Below, piece after piece: positions 19,512-61,286 of a DNA stretch of 64,000 nt. The position numbers were made by a program, and so were the translations under genes. Numbering within the stretch: position 1 is the stretch's first letter; each line of letters begins with the position of its first letter. Under the pieces are notes generated by a model, which was not told the origin of the DNA, made no database searches, and worked only from the letters and a program-made list of their open reading frames with translations. The DNA is from an uncultured Pelagibacteraceae bacterium (GTDB lineage: Bacteria; Pseudomonadota; Alphaproteobacteria; Pelagibacterales; Pelagibacteraceae): assembly GCA_902595635.1 (NCBI GenBank), contig CACJQT010000005.1:1-64000 (forward strand). Reading direction: 5' to 3'.

Positions 19512-19531
19512 TTTATGAAATTTTATTTTTA

Positions 19532-19561
19532 TACAAGCCCTTAAATTAAAAAGGGCTTGTA
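19532..19561 (-). other. Stable hairpin between the dpp-type SBP and permease genes, without clear U-tract
   Basis: TACAAGCCCTT-AAATTAAA-AAGGGCTTGTA: 11-bp perfect inverted repeat. Confidence 0.8.
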
Positions 19562-19570
19562 ATAAATTAT

Positions 19571-36705: not shown

Positions 36706-36737
36706 AAAAAAGGCCACTTAATCCAAAGTGGCCTTTT
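36706..36737 (-). terminator. Hairpin between sugar SBP and MalF-type permease
   Basis: AAAAGGCCACTT-AATCCA-AAGTGGCCTTTT; on the minus strand the stem is followed by a U-tract. Confidence 0.85.
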
Positions 36738-36749
36738 AATTTTTGATTA

Positions 36750-38199: not shown

Positions 38200-39102
38200 T
38201 TAATATGTCGCGCCTCTTCCTAATCTTGCAGCACCACGAACACCACTAGCATCACCAAATTTTGGTTTTAAAAAGACTCCTTCGTACTCCCGTCCAATTA
38301 CAAATTTTCTTACCAATGAATCTACTTCATTTAAAAAATCTATTTCATTTGAAACTCCACCACCAAAAACAAAGGCATCTGGATCTAAAATATTTATAAT
38401 ACTTGAAAGTGACATTGCTAAATTAACTTTGAAATCGTCAATAAATCTTTCTGCATCTAAATCATGTTTTCTATTTAATTCAAAAATTTCGTTTGCTTTT
38501 AAATTTTTTCCATAAATTTTATTAAATCTTTTGGCTAAACCTAAACCTGATAAAAAACTTTCAATTTCTGCTTCTCGCGCATTACTAGAGTCAAATTTTT
38601 CTTTCTTGGCAGCAAAATACGGTATTTGATTATGACCCCATTCTCCTGCAACACCATTAGGACCACTGACAATTTTCTTATCAATTACTAAACCACCCCC
38701 AACTCCTGATCCTAAAATAATTCCATAAACAATTTTATAATGTTTTCCTGATCCATCGATTGCTTCAGATAAAGCAAAACAATTTGCATCATTTTCACAA
38801 AAGACTTCTTTTCCAAGTGCTCTACGTAAATCATTTTGAAAAGGTTTTTTTTCTAACCAAGTTATATTTGGACAATTTTTTACTAACCCTGTTTGAGGAG
38901 AATGGACACCTGGATGACAAACTCCAATTGGAAGTTCTTTGTTAAATTCTTGCTCTAATTTTTTATGTATATCTCTTATCGCAATTACAATTTGATTATA
39001 ATCTTTTGGACATAATATTCTAGATCTATGTTTCTCTTGTCCATCTTCTTCAAGTACTACACTTTCAATTTTAGTAGCTCCAACATCAATACCTATTTGC
39101 AT
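38200..39102 (-). CDS. ROK family sugar kinase (NagK-like)
   Basis: IGIDVGATKIESVVL; ENDANCFALSEA; GSGVGGGLVID; start trimmed to ATG at 39102; no N-terminal HTH. Confidence 0.88.
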   Translation of the reverse strand: MQIGIDVGATKIESVVLEEDGQEKHRSRILCPKDYNQIVIAIRDIHKKLEQEFNKELPIGVCHPGVHSPQTGLVKNCPNITWLEKKPFQNDLRRALGKEVFCENDANCFALSEAIDGSGKHYKIVYGIILGSGVGGGLVIDKKIVSGPNGVAGEWGHNQIPYFAAKKEKFDSSNAREAEIESFLSGLGLAKRFNKIYGKNLKANEIFELNRKHDLDAERFIDDFKVNLAMSLSSIINILDPDAFVFGGGVSNEIDFLNEVDSLVRKFVIGREYEGVFLKPKFGDASGVRGAARLGRGATY

Positions 39103-39103
39103 A

Positions 39104-39853
39104 TTAATAAGTAGCCCTTCCACCGCTCAAATCAAAAACAGCAGCTGTAGAGAATGAATTCTCTTCACTAGCCAACCAAGTTACTAACGATGCTAATTCT
39201 TCAACTTTAGCAAATTTATTTCTAGGGATTTTTGATAACATATAATTTATATGTTCTTTAGTCATTTGGTCAAAAATCCTCGTTTTTGCTGCTGCGGGAG
39301 TTACACAATTTACAGCTATATTTTTTTGTGCAAGCTCTTTACCTAATGACTTTGTTAATCCTATAACGCCTGCTTTAGATGTGCTATAAGCGCTCGCATT
39401 TGGATTTCCTTCTTTTCCAGCAATTGATGCAATATTTACTATTCTACCATAATTATTTTTTAACATAAATGGAACAACTGCTTTACAACAGTAAAAAACT
39501 GAATTTAGATTCAAATTCATTACTTTATTCCATTCGTCTAATGGATATTCTGCAACCGATGTATTCAAACCTGCAATACCTGCGTTATTTATAAAGATGT
39601 CAATTTTTCCATGTTTTTTTTCTAGTTCTTCTAAATTTTTATTTACTATTTTAAAATTAGTAACATCAACAACTTGATGACTAAGGTTTTCAGATTTTAA
39701 TTTATTAATTGCGTCTTTAATGGCACTTTCATCAATGTCCCAAATAATAACTTTTGCACCTGATTGTATAAATCTTTCTGTAATTGCAAATCCAAAACCT
39801 TGGGCACCACCTGTTATAACTGCAACTCTATTACTTAGATCAAACTTTATCAT
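39104..39853 (-). CDS. SDR family oxidoreductase
   Basis: ITGGAQGFGFAITERF; YSTSKAGVIGLTKSLGKELA. Confidence 0.9.
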   Translation of the reverse strand: MIKFDLSNRVAVITGGAQGFGFAITERFIQSGAKVIIWDIDESAIKDAINKLKSENLSHQVVDVTNFKIVNKNLEELEKKHGKIDIFINNAGIAGLNTSVAEYPLDEWNKVMNLNLNSVFYCCKAVVPFMLKNNYGRIVNIASIAGKEGNPNASAYSTSKAGVIGLTKSLGKELAQKNIAVNCVTPAAAKTRIFDQMTKEHINYMLSKIPRNKFAKVEELASLVTWLASEENSFSTAAVFDLSGGRATY

Positions 39854-39854
39854 T

Positions 39855-41318
39855 TTATTTACTTCTCTTTATTAATGGAAAACTTAAAGCAATTAAAGAT
39901 AAAACAAAAAATGTTAAAGCTATAGGTCTTTGAAGGAACATTAACCAGTTTCCATCGAAAATAACAAGCGATTGTCTTAAAGTTCCCTCTACTAATTCAC
40001 CTAAAATTAAACCTATAATTACAGGTACAACTGAAAATCCATATCTTCTCATAAAAAAACCAATAACTCCAAATAATAGCATCAACCAAACATCAATAAT
40101 TGACTGATTTAAAGAATATGTTCCACAAACAGAAACTGCAAAAATCATCGGCCATAATAATTTATTCGGAACTAGAGTTATTCTTGCAAATATTTTAGCC
40201 CCAAAAAATCCTAATACGAAGAATAAAATATTTGCAATTAGCATTGATCCAAATATTCCATAAAGAAACTCAGGTTGCTCTCTAAATAAATCTGGACCCG
40301 GTCTTACACCATGTATGATTAATCCTGTAAGTATTACTGCTGTAGTCGCACTACCAGGAATGCCCAATGCTAGCGTTGGAACCATAGCTCCTCCGGTAGC
40401 AGCATTATTTGCTGCTTCAGCTCCAGCTATCCCTTCAATTGATCCTTTTCCAAAATCCTCAGGTTTTTTTGACCATCTTTTTGCTTCAGCATATCCTATT
40501 AATGATGCAACAGTTCCTCCCTCTGCTGGTAAAACACCAATGAATGATCCTATGCCGCTAGATCTAATTATTGTTTTCCAAGTTTTTTTATAATCATCGA
40601 TTGATGGAAGTTTAACTGCCTTTAAAGCTACTCTATTAAATATTTGATTAATTAAAGTAGATTGAGTTAACATTTCACTAATGGCAAACAAACCTACTAC
40701 CACTGGAATAAAACCAATACCTTCAGTCAATTCATTAATTCCAAATGTAAACCTATCTATAGATGTCATAAAATCTTTACCAACAGTTGAAATTAGAATT
40801 CCAAAAGCACCAGCAATTAAATTTTTTATAGGACTACCTTCGCCAATTGATGCAAGCATAGTTAATCCAAAAATTGCTAGAGCAAAATATTCAGGTTGAC
40901 CGAATTCGTAAGCTAAATTTGCAAGTAAAGGTGCAAAAAATATAAGAACTACAACACTAGCAATTCCACCAATTACGCTGGAAACAGTAGCCATACCTAA
41001 AGCTCTACCAGCTTCTCCTTTTTGTGCTAAAGGGTAACCATCTAAACATGTGGCTGCTGCTGCAGGGGTTCCAGGAGTATTTATTAAAATTGCGGTAATC
41101 GCACCTCCATAAGTTCCTGCACAATAAATTGCAGTAAGTAATACAATTGCAGATAGTGGATCTAGTGTCATCGTAAATGGTAATATTAAAGCACCGCCTG
41201 TTGTTGGTCCTAGTCCAGGAAGAACTCCAAGAATTAATCCAAAAATTGTTCCAAAAAATAAAACAATTAATAATTTATAACTAAATAAAGGAGCAAAGAT
41301 TAAACCTAAATTTTCCAT
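39855..41318 (-). CDS. tctA: Tripartite tricarboxylate transporter large membrane subunit
   Basis: GLILGVLPGLGPTTGGALILPFT; AIYCAGTYGGAITAILINTPGTPAAAATCLDGYPLAQKG. Confidence 0.96.
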   Translation of the reverse strand: MENLGLIFAPLFSYKLLIVLFFGTIFGLILGVLPGLGPTTGGALILPFTMTLDPLSAIVLLTAIYCAGTYGGAITAILINTPGTPAAAATCLDGYPLAQKGEAGRALGMATVSSVIGGIASVVVLIFFAPLLANLAYEFGQPEYFALAIFGLTMLASIGEGSPIKNLIAGAFGILISTVGKDFMTSIDRFTFGINELTEGIGFIPVVVGLFAISEMLTQSTLINQIFNRVALKAVKLPSIDDYKKTWKTIIRSSGIGSFIGVLPAEGGTVASLIGYAEAKRWSKKPEDFGKGSIEGIAGAEAANNAATGGAMVPTLALGIPGSATTAVILTGLIIHGVRPGPDLFREQPEFLYGIFGSMLIANILFFVLGFFGAKIFARITLVPNKLLWPMIFAVSVCGTYSLNQSIIDVWLMLLFGVIGFFMRRYGFSVVPVIIGLILGELVEGTLRQSLVIFDGNWLMFLQRPIALTFFVLSLIALSFPLIKRSK

Positions 41319-41319
41319 T

Positions 41320-41826
41320 TTATCCGTAATAAAGATTTGTAATAATTCCAGGTGGAAATCGTAATCCTAAAATTGTTTCAAAAAATACAAAAACAATTAA
41401 AGGAAATATAATTGATACCATTATTAAATAGGTAACTCTTCTTTCTCCCCAAAAGTAAGAAACTATGATTGAAAGTAATGCTATGCCTAAAAAGAAATCT
41501 AAAAATTTTGAAACAGTTACAAAAACAACAAATGAAAGTAAAGTGATATAAAATGAATTAGGTAATTTTTTTTCATTTTTCCAAGGATTTTTAAGAGAAA
41601 TAAAATAAGTTAATAAAGTTAGTGCAATAATTAAAATTAACAGGGCCTTTGGAAATGTTGCTGGTTGGATACCTCTATTTAATATAGGAGGTACTATATC
41701 AAAAGTAAAAGTAAAGTATAATAGGATTGAAGAAATTACTATTATTACAGCTGATACAATGAATGAACTTTTAAAAAAAAGGGACAAACTTTTGTTTGTC
41801 CCTTTTTCATTATGTACATCATTCAT
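41320..41826 (-). CDS. tctB: Tripartite tricarboxylate transporter small membrane subunit
   Basis: Four TM segments between tctA and tctC; N-terminal codons overlap a terminator hairpin. Confidence 0.85.
   Translation of the reverse strand: MNDVHNEKGTNKSLSLFFKSSFIVSAVIIVISSILLYFTFTFDIVPPILNRGIQPATFPKALLILIIALTLLTYFISLKNPWKNEKKLPNSFYITLLSFVVFVTVSKFLDFFLGIALLSIIVSYFWGERRVTYLIMVSIIFPLIVFVFFETILGLRFPPGIITNLYYG
41773..41807 (-). terminator. Intrinsic terminator inside the 5' coding region of tctB
   Basis: Minus strand: AAAAAGGGACAAAC-AAAA-GTTTGTCCCTTTTTTTT; 9-bp perfect core stem plus A-U extension and T8. Confidence 0.88.
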
Positions 41827-41837
41827 TTAAATGTACA
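41813..41837 (-). promoter_or_regulatory. Small hairpin placing the tctB start codon in its loop
   Basis: TGTACAT (41813-41819) and ATGTACA (41831-41837): 7-bp stem, 11-nt loop containing the ATG at 41824-41826. Confidence 0.5.
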
Positions 41838-41844
41838 AAATTTA

Positions 41845-42819
41845 TTAATTAATGTAACCCAATGCTTTGAGTTGAGCTGTCATTTCAGCAAGCATTTCTT
41901 CCATTTGCTTGCCCCACTCATCTGCACCTACAACACTCGTCTCATCAAGACCAATTTCTGTTAGGAAATTTTTATAGTAGTTGTGGCTCATAGCTTTCAT
42001 CATTCCAGCTTCTAGTTGTTTAACTCTGTCTGCTGGAGCACCTTTTTTAGTTACGAAACCTCTAACAGTAGATAAAGAAACAGGTATACCTAATTCTTTA
42101 GCTGTTGGAGAGTCTCCAATTTTAGCCATTCTATTATTTGCTAATACAACTGAAACACAAAGTTTTCCTTCATTAATTTCAGTTAGGGCCTCACCTAAAT
42201 TTAAAACTCCTACATCAATATCTCCTTTTATTAGATTAGTTTTAATTGGCGCAACACCTTTGTAAGCAACAATAGTTGGATCTTTTAATCCACCTTTTTT
42301 AGTAAATGCAATTGCACTAACATCATCAATTCCACCAGTGTGAGTTGTTCCATATTTTAGTGATTTTGATTTTTGCGTGCTAATAAATTTCTTAGCATCT
42401 TTAATGTCATTATTACAGTTAACAACAAATAGTTGAGGATCATCAGTTCCTCTAGCTAGCGGTTGCATATCACTTATTTTGACTTTTGTTTTACCTAAAG
42501 CCATTGATACAGCGTGACCAGTAGTCCAAGTCAAAGTGTGATTACCATCAGCAGGAAGTGTCATCATATAGTCCATGGATGCAGCTCCACCACCACCTTT
42601 TTTATTAACTAATTGCATGTCTTGTTTTAAAACTCTTCTTGCTCTTAACAACATCATTCTAGTAGTAACATCTGTTCCACCACCAAAACCAGCATGAGTA
42701 ATTGCTTGTATTGGATGACCATCTGCTTTTGCAGATGTAATCATAAGTGGAAGTGCTACAACGAAAAATTCAGTTACTAAAAATGCAGCAGCTAAAAATA
42801 GTTTAAAGCTTTTTTTCAT
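41845..42819 (-). CDS. tctC: Tripartite tricarboxylate transporter substrate-binding protein
   Basis: AITHAGFGGGTDVTTRMMLLRARRVL; VNKKGGGGAASMDYM. Confidence 0.93.
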   Translation of the reverse strand: MKKSFKLFLAAAFLVTEFFVVALPLMITSAKADGHPIQAITHAGFGGGTDVTTRMMLLRARRVLKQDMQLVNKKGGGGAASMDYMMTLPADGNHTLTWTTGHAVSMALGKTKVKISDMQPLARGTDDPQLFVVNCNNDIKDAKKFISTQKSKSLKYGTTHTGGIDDVSAIAFTKKGGLKDPTIVAYKGVAPIKTNLIKGDIDVGVLNLGEALTEINEGKLCVSVVLANNRMAKIGDSPTAKELGIPVSLSTVRGFVTKKGAPADRVKQLEAGMMKAMSHNYYKNFLTEIGLDETSVVGADEWGKQMEEMLAEMTAQLKALGYIN

Positions 42820-42888: not shown

Positions 42889-43881
42889 ATGACAAATAAG
42901 AAAAAAAATATTGCTTTATTACTAGGAGATCCATCAGGTATTGGACCAGAACTTATATCAAAACTTTTGACCCAAAACGAACTATCGAATGCAAATATTA
43001 CTATAATTGGTGAAAAAAATATTTTAAACGCTGGAGATAAAATTTCAGGAAATAATTCAGACCTAGAAATTGTTACTGATTTTGATGAAATAAATTTTGA
43101 TAAAAAAAGTAAGTATTTTTTAGATATCTCTAAGGGCAAAAACAAAAATTATAATTTATCAGAGTGCTCTGCGGAATCTGGAGAAACAGTTTTAAATGCA
43201 TTAAATTTAGCACTAGAACTTGCGAAAGAAAAAAAAATTGATGCTATTAATTTTGGTCCTTTTAATAAGACAAGCTTAAAACTAGGTGGATGTAAATTTG
43301 ATGACGAATTACATCATATGGCTGATAAATTAAATGTAAAAAGTTTTTTTTGTGAATTTAATGTAGTAGATAATTTTTGGACTGCACGAGTGACATCTCA
43401 TATACCTATCAAAGAAGTTCCAGAACATATTAAGAAAGATAAAATAATGAAGCCAATAAAATTGATTAATGAAGCAATGAAATTAAACGGTATAGAAAAT
43501 CCAAGAGTTGCAGTTCAAGCTCTTAACCCTCATGCAGAGTTTGGTAATGAAGAAAAAGATGAGATAATACCAGCAATAGAGGAAGCAAAAAAACTTGGTA
43601 TTAATGCTGATGGTCCTTTGCCATGTGATACTTCTTTCATTACAGCATTTAAAAATAAAAATCATGATTGTATTGTTGGAATGTATCATGATGCTCTTCA
43701 ATCTGGACTAAAGGCTTTTGGATTTGATAGAGGAGTAACAGTTCAAGGTGGTCTTCCAATTCCAATAACAACACCTGCGCATGGAACTGCGTTTGATATT
43801 GCCGGAAAAAATCAGGCAAATTTGGAGCCAACATTGCAATCGTTTAAAATTGCATTAAGAATGGCTCAAAATTTAAATTAA
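42889..43881 (+). CDS. PdxA family dehydrogenase (PdxA/PdxA2-like)
   Basis: LLGDPSGIGPELISK; GMYHDALQSGLKAFGFDRGVTVQGGLPIPITTPAHGTAFDIAGK. Confidence 0.9.
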   Translation: MTNKKKNIALLLGDPSGIGPELISKLLTQNELSNANITIIGEKNILNAGDKISGNNSDLEIVTDFDEINFDKKSKYFLDISKGKNKNYNLSECSAESGETVLNALNLALELAKEKKIDAINFGPFNKTSLKLGGCKFDDELHHMADKLNVKSFFCEFNVVDNFWTARVTSHIPIKEVPEHIKKDKIMKPIKLINEAMKLNGIENPRVAVQALNPHAEFGNEEKDEIIPAIEEAKKLGINADGPLPCDTSFITAFKNKNHDCIVGMYHDALQSGLKAFGFDRGVTVQGGLPIPITTPAHGTAFDIAGKNQANLEPTLQSFKIALRMAQNLN

Positions 43882-45057
43882 ATGTCTAAAATTAAAGATA
43901 TAAGAACAAAAGTATATCAATGGAATGGTAAAACAGTTCCTCCACAAAATAATTTTTGCACAAATGCATCAGATTTACTTTATGAAAAATCAGATGCCAT
44001 GGGTTCTTTCAGATTTCATGAATGGTTAATTTGTGAAATTGAAACTGATGATGGTCATATTGGAATTGGTAATGCAGCTCTTGCACCTCAGTTAGTAAAA
44101 AAAACTATTGATGAGTATCTTAGACCATTAGTTATAGGAGAAGATCCTTTTGATTACGCTTACATCTGGGAAAAAATGTATAGAAGAACTCATGCATGGG
44201 GAAGAAGAGGTTTAGGTATGGTTGCAATATCTGCAATTGATATTGCTATTTGGGATATATTAGGAAAATTAACTAACAAACCCGTATTTAAATTGTTAGG
44301 GGGTAGAACAAAAGAAAAGATACCTGTTTATGCATCAAAACTTTATAGCCAACCAATCAAAGATTTACAAAATGAAGCTGAAAAATATAAAAAACAAGGT
44401 TTTAAAATGTTTAAAATGAGATTTGGTTGGGGGCCAAAAGATGGTCCTGAAGGTATGAGAAAAAACATTGAACTTGTAGAAGCTGTAAGAGAAGTAATCG
44501 GGGATGATACTGACTTAATGTTAGAATGTTATATGGGTTGGAACCTAGATTATTCTAAAAGAATGATACCTAAATTGGTAAAATTTAATCCAAGATGGTT
44601 AGAAGAACCAGTTATTGCTGATGATATTCATGGGTATGCGGAACTGAATAATATGAACGCTATACCAATTTCTGGGGGAGAACATGAATTTAATCTATTT
44701 GGTTTTAAACAATTGTTAGACCTCAAAGCAGTTAGCTACATTCAATATGATAATAATAGAGTTGGTGGATTTACAATCGCTCAGAAAATAAATGCTCTTG
44801 CAGAGGCTTATCAAGTTCCAGTAATTCCACATGCAGGTCAAATGCATAACTATCATTTAACAATGTCGAATTTTAATTGTCCTATCTCAGAGTTTTTTCC
44901 AGTTCATGATGTAGAAATTGGTAACGAACTATTTTATTATATTTTTGAAGGTGATCCTGCTCCAATAGATGGAATGATCGATCTAGATGATAATGTTCCA
45001 GGTCTTGGGCTTAAGATTACAGATAAATATAAATCAGAATTTAAAATTATTGAGTAA
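43882..45057 (+). CDS. Enolase-superfamily sugar-acid dehydratase, L-rhamnonate dehydratase-like
   Basis: [51 protein letters not shown] resembles RhmD. Confidence 0.8.
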
Positions 45058-46456: not shown

Positions 46457-46492
46457 AAAAAAAAAGGGTGGAATAAAATTCCACCCTTTTTT
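46457..46492 (-). terminator. Terminator hairpin after Rbs-type SBP gene
   Basis: AAAAAAGGGTGGAA-TAAAA-TTCCACCCTTTTTT; A/T-flanked stem, potentially bidirectional. Confidence 0.88.
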
Positions 46493-61251: not shown

Positions 61252-61286
61252 AAGGCCTGACTAAATTTTATAGTCAGGCCTTTTTT
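61252..61286 (+). terminator. Strong intrinsic terminator between SBP and permease
   Basis: AAGGCCTGACTA-AATTTTA-TAGTCAGGCCTT followed by TTTT: 12-bp perfect stem. Confidence 0.92.

Follow-up and report, generated by a model that had tools for sequence, protein, structure and literature searches.

In an uncultured Pelagibacteraceae bacterium of the SAR11 group, the first codons of tctB form an intrinsic terminator directly behind tctC, a gene for a substrate-binding protein (SBP), and the tctB start codon lies in the loop of a smaller hairpin just upstream (Table 1). Attenuation between the SBP and permease genes at this junction is well supported by the sequence comparisons described below, and we infer that leakiness of the terminator would provide much SBP and little permease. 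On balance, it is probable that the junction acts as a leaky SBP/permease attenuator, readthrough of which would be raised by a ribosome entering tctB. The window referred to below is the whole stretch of DNA that was analysed (64,000 nucleotides), and the source assembly, which is 81% complete, has 45 contigs totalling 1.12 Mb.

Table 1. Coordinates of the tctCBA operon, the elements of its junction and the related loci (positions in the window unless a locus is named)
Feature	Position	Strand	Description	Basis
tctC	41845..42819	-	SBP of a tripartite tricarboxylate transporter, at the head of the operon	ORF; PF03401, E 5.7e-19
Gap between tctC stop and tctB start	41827..41844	-	18 nt	Sequence
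Hairpin 1	41813..41837	-	Stem GTACATT/(A,G)ATGTAC, tctB ATG in the loop	Fold
tctB start codon ATG	41824..41826	-	Its frame is open, and the others are closed, in all 44 relatives	Frame and spacing evidence
Hairpin 2	41775..41808	-	Terminator stem, tctB codons 7-18	Fold
U8 tract	41773..41780	-	End of the terminator	Sequence
tctB	41320..41826	-	Small membrane subunit, both hairpins at the 5' end	ORF; PF07331 from residue 23, E 1.2e-11
tctA	39855..41318	-	Large membrane subunit, 3' of tctB	ORF; PF01970, E 8.3e-160
Terminator after SBP_bac_5	19528-19565		Strong terminator	Window scan
Terminator after SBP_bac_1	36707-36738		Strong terminator	Window scan
Terminator after Peripla_BP_4	46461-46491	-	Strong terminator	Window scan
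Terminator after Peripla_BP_4	61254-61280	+	Strong terminator	Window scan
Second tctCB operon (tct2)	G000:C3, L196:640-730, about 73940-74030		Same genome; relatives L197-L232	

Spacing counts among relatives gave a tctC-tctB gap of 18-26 nt, with the 5' arm of hairpin 1 starting 8-13 nt past the tctC stop. PdxA-family dehydrogenase-like and enolase-superfamily dehydratase-like genes were located in the opposite orientation to tctC (window 42889-45057, plus strand), and short-chain dehydrogenase-like and ROK-type kinase-like genes were found 3' of tctA (window 38200-39853, minus strand). All these names were read from translations, and a sugar-acid substrate is a guess. In a few relatives (L102, L103 and L135), tctB was broken by frame changes into two tblastn pieces, with the hairpins still intact; these copies are perhaps pseudogenes or assembly errors.

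The earlier note on this DNA had pointed to a textbook terminator lying in frame at the start of tctB, and its sequence, coordinates and form were all found as described, the hairpin occupying codons 7-18. The stem has a 9-bp G+C-containing core (41781-41802, GGGACAAAC-AAAA-GTTTGTCCC) with a 4-nt loop and is directly followed by the U8 tract, as expected of an intrinsic terminator. A-U pairs lengthen the stem to 41775-41808, and the first six residues of the U tract are also paired with the 5' A tract. The 101-nt junction folded with -28.1 kcal/mol in comparison with -13.6 +/- 2.9 kcal/mol for dinucleotide shuffles (z = -5.1), and none of the 200 shuffles was as good. Hairpin 2 was not listed in a generic terminator scan of the window; a dedicated scan of the same 64 kb placed it among five strong terminators.

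The Rfam search returned only sub-threshold matches, none above the gathering score of any family, which ruled out a known RNA family. When 101 genomes were searched with a covariance model built on both hairpins, the strong matches scored at least 79 bits and all of them that could be placed were located at tctB. Six weaker matches were inspected and turned out to be terminator-like hairpins lacking the tctB context, mostly at gene ends, rather than further copies of the two-hairpin element. In the open-access literature, no paper describing the element was found and nothing relevant was retrieved for tctB/tctC together with a terminator, and the available parts of the text of an attenuator survey and of a Pelagibacter RNA screen make no mention of the site.

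About 110 tctC-tctB junctions were gathered from relatives, with TctB mostly 66-100% identical, and dereplicated to 44. In the resulting alignment, the core of hairpin 2 was paired in 44 of 44 sequences, which bears out the conservation of the stem on which the proposal of the earlier note depended. Two-sided changes were detected at four core pairs, in 8, 7, 1 and 1 sequences, respectively; these counts are inflated by kinship, and still the stem sequence differs between clades and the pairing does not. Shifting the partner strand by 1-3 columns as a control lowered the pairing from 96% to 40-61%. The encoded peptide reads KGT..SLSL in the window clade and KRA..SLPF in most others, with the pairs preserved via double changes, so the stem covaries while the N-terminal peptide drifts, which is the pattern that the earlier note had proposed as a test. 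Across the aligned relatives, the U tract retained at least six T, single substitutions aside.

Synonymous identity, defined as the codon match among those of the 44 dereplicated sequences that share the amino acid, reached 98% in tctB codons 8-20 (61% expected from codon usage) and 90% in codons 2-7 (68% expected), and was 60-62% in the remaining part of tctB (50-52% expected). Moreover, three codons that are rare in the genome of a relative were fixed: CCC, AGG and TTG, which there make up 4.6% of the proline, 6.9% of the arginine and 12.7% of the leucine codons, respectively. Because synonymous sites are frozen and rare codons fixed, the constraint on the start of tctB is, by these sequence measures, one on RNA or DNA, beyond the protein alone.

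The placement of the tctB ATG inside the loop of a second hairpin, also claimed earlier, was confirmed by the fold at the same coordinates. Hairpin 1 has an 8-bp stem (U-G counted) and a 9-nt loop; its 5' arm is non-coding and its 3' arm corresponds to tctB codons 3-5. To judge the chance rate, perfect stems of at least 7 bp around the called start were counted in an AT-rich relative and found in 23 of 402 genes. A start-in-loop hairpin by itself is not improbable, and its significance comes from conservation. Among the 44 relatives, hairpin 1 pairing was present in 99.7% of cells, with mostly invariant pairs leaving little covariation signal. Because covariation is uninformative where pairs hardly vary, the stronger evidence for hairpin 1 is its non-coding 5' arm, GTACATT, which is nearly invariant in the alignment although the surrounding non-coding DNA varies in sequence and length.

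The lack of a Shine-Dalgarno sequence before the tctB ATG, remarked on in the earlier note, is real yet ordinary for these genomes. In the genome of a relative, an SD-like 4-mer preceded the start of 51 of 301 genes, and a control position carried one in 23 of these 301; because such 4-mers are uncommon here, their absence at tctB is uninformative. The GTACAT..ATGTAC dyad was detected as a single copy in the same genome and as a single copy in 400 kb of a relative, both at tctB, and this solitary occurrence led to the rejection of the dyad as an operator of a regulon.

Comparison of the reading frames indicates that hairpin 2 is coding and would be translated. Frame 0 from the tctB ATG is open in all 44 sequences, each of which has stops in both other frames. 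The lengths of the hairpin loop differ solely by +3 nt (L085, L095, L130 and L134), perhaps reflecting two to four events, and the non-coding spacer from the 5' arm of hairpin 1 to the ATG has lengths of 4-8 and 10 nt, in all three phases. It is this combination, an open frame, loops changing by +3 only and a spacer varying in all phases, that points to a coding hairpin; the frame and loop-insertion evidence speaks against a tctB start downstream of the hairpin, an outcome that the earlier note had named as contrary to its reading. In the paralogous SAR11 TctB proteins (L126-L128), the chain begins near residues 17-19 of the window TctB, and the hairpin lies just 5' of their ATG. By inference, an upstream start codon may have captured a once-intergenic terminator.

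In the tct2 operon, the tctB2 GTG start lies within the 5' arm of the terminator in every relative examined. The terminator has the form AAAGCAGTGAGA..TCTCACTGCTTT with a U tract in the window clade and AGAGCAGTGA..TCACTGCTCT with a U tract in the remaining clades, and the fold of the tct2 junction from the same genome as the window gave a z of -5.2. Among 25 distinct sequences, 14 of the 15 stem pairs never fail, and one pair shows a G-C/A-U double change in six. The GTG was fixed in 21 of 21 dereplicated copies (GTG makes up 11 of 301 called starts in a relative), a fixation attributable to its pairing in the stem. No alternative downstream ATG, GTG or TTG start was found for tctB2, so the GTG must be used. 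A small hairpin over the tctC2 stop also covaries, with C-G replaced by U-A in 10 of 25 sequences.

A third type of tctCB junction was observed in a single copy from one relative (L129:440-540), in which the tctC stop and the tctB start share bases (TAATG) and a G+C-rich hairpin with a short U tract occupies codons 9-17; this copy may be a rare acquisition or contamination. Among 30 tctB loci of other Alphaproteobacteria, no clear terminator was detected in the tctB start. In one of them (L168) a terminator lay upstream of the gene, in another (L150) probably likewise, and the sample contained a few weak hairpins rich in G+C. These loci rule out a general habit of tctB genes, and within the limits of the 30-locus sample the in-gene terminator arrangement looks like a SAR11 feature.

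All five strong terminators of the window were located directly 3' of an SBP gene and 5' of the next co-oriented gene. At the four other than hairpin 2, the downstream start codon comes after the hairpin and there is no coding overlap. The near-complete relative G082 yielded 12 distinct strong terminators in 400 kb, eight of them behind SBP genes. The four non-SBP ones (L112:9532-9560, L112:10981-11002, L123:8596-8615 and L124:5255-5288) were found after two ammonium transporters, recA and a rhodopsin gene. Of 11 SBP genes recognised in these 400 kb, eight have a strong terminator, two have a hairpin without a U tract and ZnuA has no strong one. The two strong hairpins lacking a U tract (L117:8440-8510 and L116:18225-18310) may be processing or stabilising elements. 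For the association between SBP genes and terminators, Fisher's exact test gave p ~5e-12, a rough guide since the SBP list was partly built from the terminator list, with background counts taken from the window and 400 kb of stretches from one relative. As far as predicted terminators go, SAR11 generally places one immediately behind the SBP gene, and the suggestion that the tctB element sets the SBP:permease ratio fits this genome-wide pattern. A further in-gene terminator suspected at DctP-DctQ of the relative was discarded as an over-long gene call, with the likely start after the hairpin.

According to the proposed mechanism, most polymerases completing tctC would stop at the U8 tract, leaving a tctC message with the terminator hairpin at its end, and a minority would read on into tctBA, which would make the SBP abundant and the permease scarce. 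A ribosome entering tctB in time would melt hairpin 1 at once and block hairpin 2 after a few codons. With hairpin 2 blocked, readthrough would increase, and transcription of tctBA would be tied to translation at the junction. Because the start codons of both tctB and tctB2 are transcribed before the termination point (54 nt separate the tctB ATG from the last U, and ~40 nt the tctB2 start from the termination point), translation-coupled readthrough is possible at both genes, and the tct2 operon makes translational coupling more likely. At the other post-SBP terminators of the window, a ribosome starting on the downstream gene could have no such influence, its start codon being transcribed only after the hairpin. 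With only 54 nt available, fresh initiation would usually come too late, which makes reinitiation by a ribosome that has finished tctC, with its stop 18 nt upstream, the more plausible and most likely source. The start of the hairpin 1 5' arm lies near the leading edge of such a terminating ribosome. No alternative antiterminator pairing was evident, the predicted fold consisting of two independent hairpins, and no separate leader ORF, such as would carry regulatory codons, was detected at the junction. At the pyr leader, an advancing ribosome inhibits intrinsic termination, and in an engineered reporter with the pyr terminator most transcripts were still terminated, the coupling being loose (PMC5021804). 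Due to this loose coupling, mostly termination would be expected at tctB, with a modest translation-dependent share of readthrough.

A weak promoter-like match at hairpin 1 (TGTACA-17-CATAAT, 41837-41809) could mean that transcription of tctC terminates completely and tctBA is expressed from its own promoter at the junction, which we regard as very unlikely. Promoter-like matches around the junction did not exceed the background (37 vs 40.8 in shuffles), the -10 part is not retained, other clades reading ACAAAA or similar, and the transcript would still start upstream of or within the terminator. A promoter within the junction was rejected on these grounds, the sole match being weak and not preserved in relatives. 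The only other early in-frame start of tctB, a TTG in the 3' arm of hairpin 2, is present in 44 of 44 sequences, and with it as the start the remaining N-terminus would agree in length with the paralogous TctB proteins. That this TTG is the true start and the hairpin a 5' UTR masking it is nevertheless highly improbable: the ATG frame is open throughout, the loop insertions 5' of the TTG are always +3, the TTG is already explained by base pairing, and tct2 has no comparable downstream start, its GTG being obligatory. Conservation of the nucleotides for the sake of the N-terminal peptide, with the stem incidental, can practically be dismissed; the peptide is recognisably similar across relatives, but the frozen synonymous sites, the fixed rare codons and the double compensatory changes that alter the peptide and keep the stem contradict such an explanation.

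A plain leaky terminator that also stabilises the message end deserves more weight, although we consider it less likely than not. Its intrinsic efficiency alone would set the ratio, and the overlap with tctB would be a by-product of compact packing and a start codon moved upstream. The intergenic terminators after the four other SBP genes of the window would work without overlap, the paralogous SAR11 tctB genes start just 3' of their hairpin, and initiation at tctB is probably too slow for frequent competition. In this genome, post-SBP terminators as a rule overlap no coding sequence, so that the setting of the ratio can do without translation. However, all relatives retain the start codon 5' of the terminator, the second operon repeats the arrangement with its start codon placed inside the stem, and hairpin 1 would be left without a role although its non-coding arm is conserved. 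Beyond the leaky attenuator with ribosome-dependent readthrough preferred here, we tentatively propose, as quite possible though short of probable, a distinct class of attenuators in SAR11 tripartite tricarboxylate transporter operons, in which the terminator lies in the first codons of the permease gene (with even the start codon in the stem in one paralogous operon), initiation and termination are mutually exclusive, and readthrough signals how well ribosomes are supplied where the SBP gene ends.

In translational coupling, a hairpin can mask a downstream start codon, and the tctB start likewise lies in a small hairpin with its 5' arm 8-13 nt past the upstream stop. Unlike in coupling hairpins, the terminator follows directly, so that initiation could act on transcription in addition to translation. 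The ampC leader is a translation-linked attenuator. As in attenuators of this kind, such as the pyr leader, a timely ribosome would be expected to prevent formation of the terminator, whereas the pyr and ampC systems rely on a leader peptide or a ribosome site in the leader, ahead of the regulated gene, and at tctB the terminator consists of the opening codons of the structural gene itself, at the junction of two operon genes. In cellulolytic Clostridia, internal intrinsic terminators after the SBP genes of ABC importers cut the downstream transcript and set the SBP:translocator ratio (Wu et al. 2022, PMC9045158). They resemble the SAR11 element in that a stem-loop with a U tract immediately follows the SBP gene and precedes transporter genes of the same orientation. 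However, the clostridial ones are intergenic, mostly in gaps >50 bp, and belong to ABC importers of Firmicutes, whereas the SAR11 element, known from sequence only, is placed inside tctB codons 7-18 of a tripartite tricarboxylate transporter. Together with the post-SBP pattern, this precedent provides the strongest argument for a role of the tctB element. In E. coli, ORF-internal premature 3' ends were mapped experimentally in various genes, some of them with intrinsic-terminator scores (Adams et al. 2021, PMC7815308); the tctB site is likewise within a coding sequence, but it is a predicted one, conserved at one operon junction. Internal post-SBP terminators and ribosome-inhibited termination are thus already known, and what appears to be new is the terminator within the first codons of the downstream gene.

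SAR11 bacteria are among the most abundant organisms on Earth, relying on SBP-dependent uptake and possessing very few regulators. The first 18 residues of this TctB reflect RNA structure, with protein function not the main influence, which calls for caution in annotation. A rule of SBP gene, terminator and permease in this order, simple, conserved and readable from sequence, would explain the excess of SBPs over pumps, and its in-gene version could couple the SBP:permease ratio to translation without a protein regulator.
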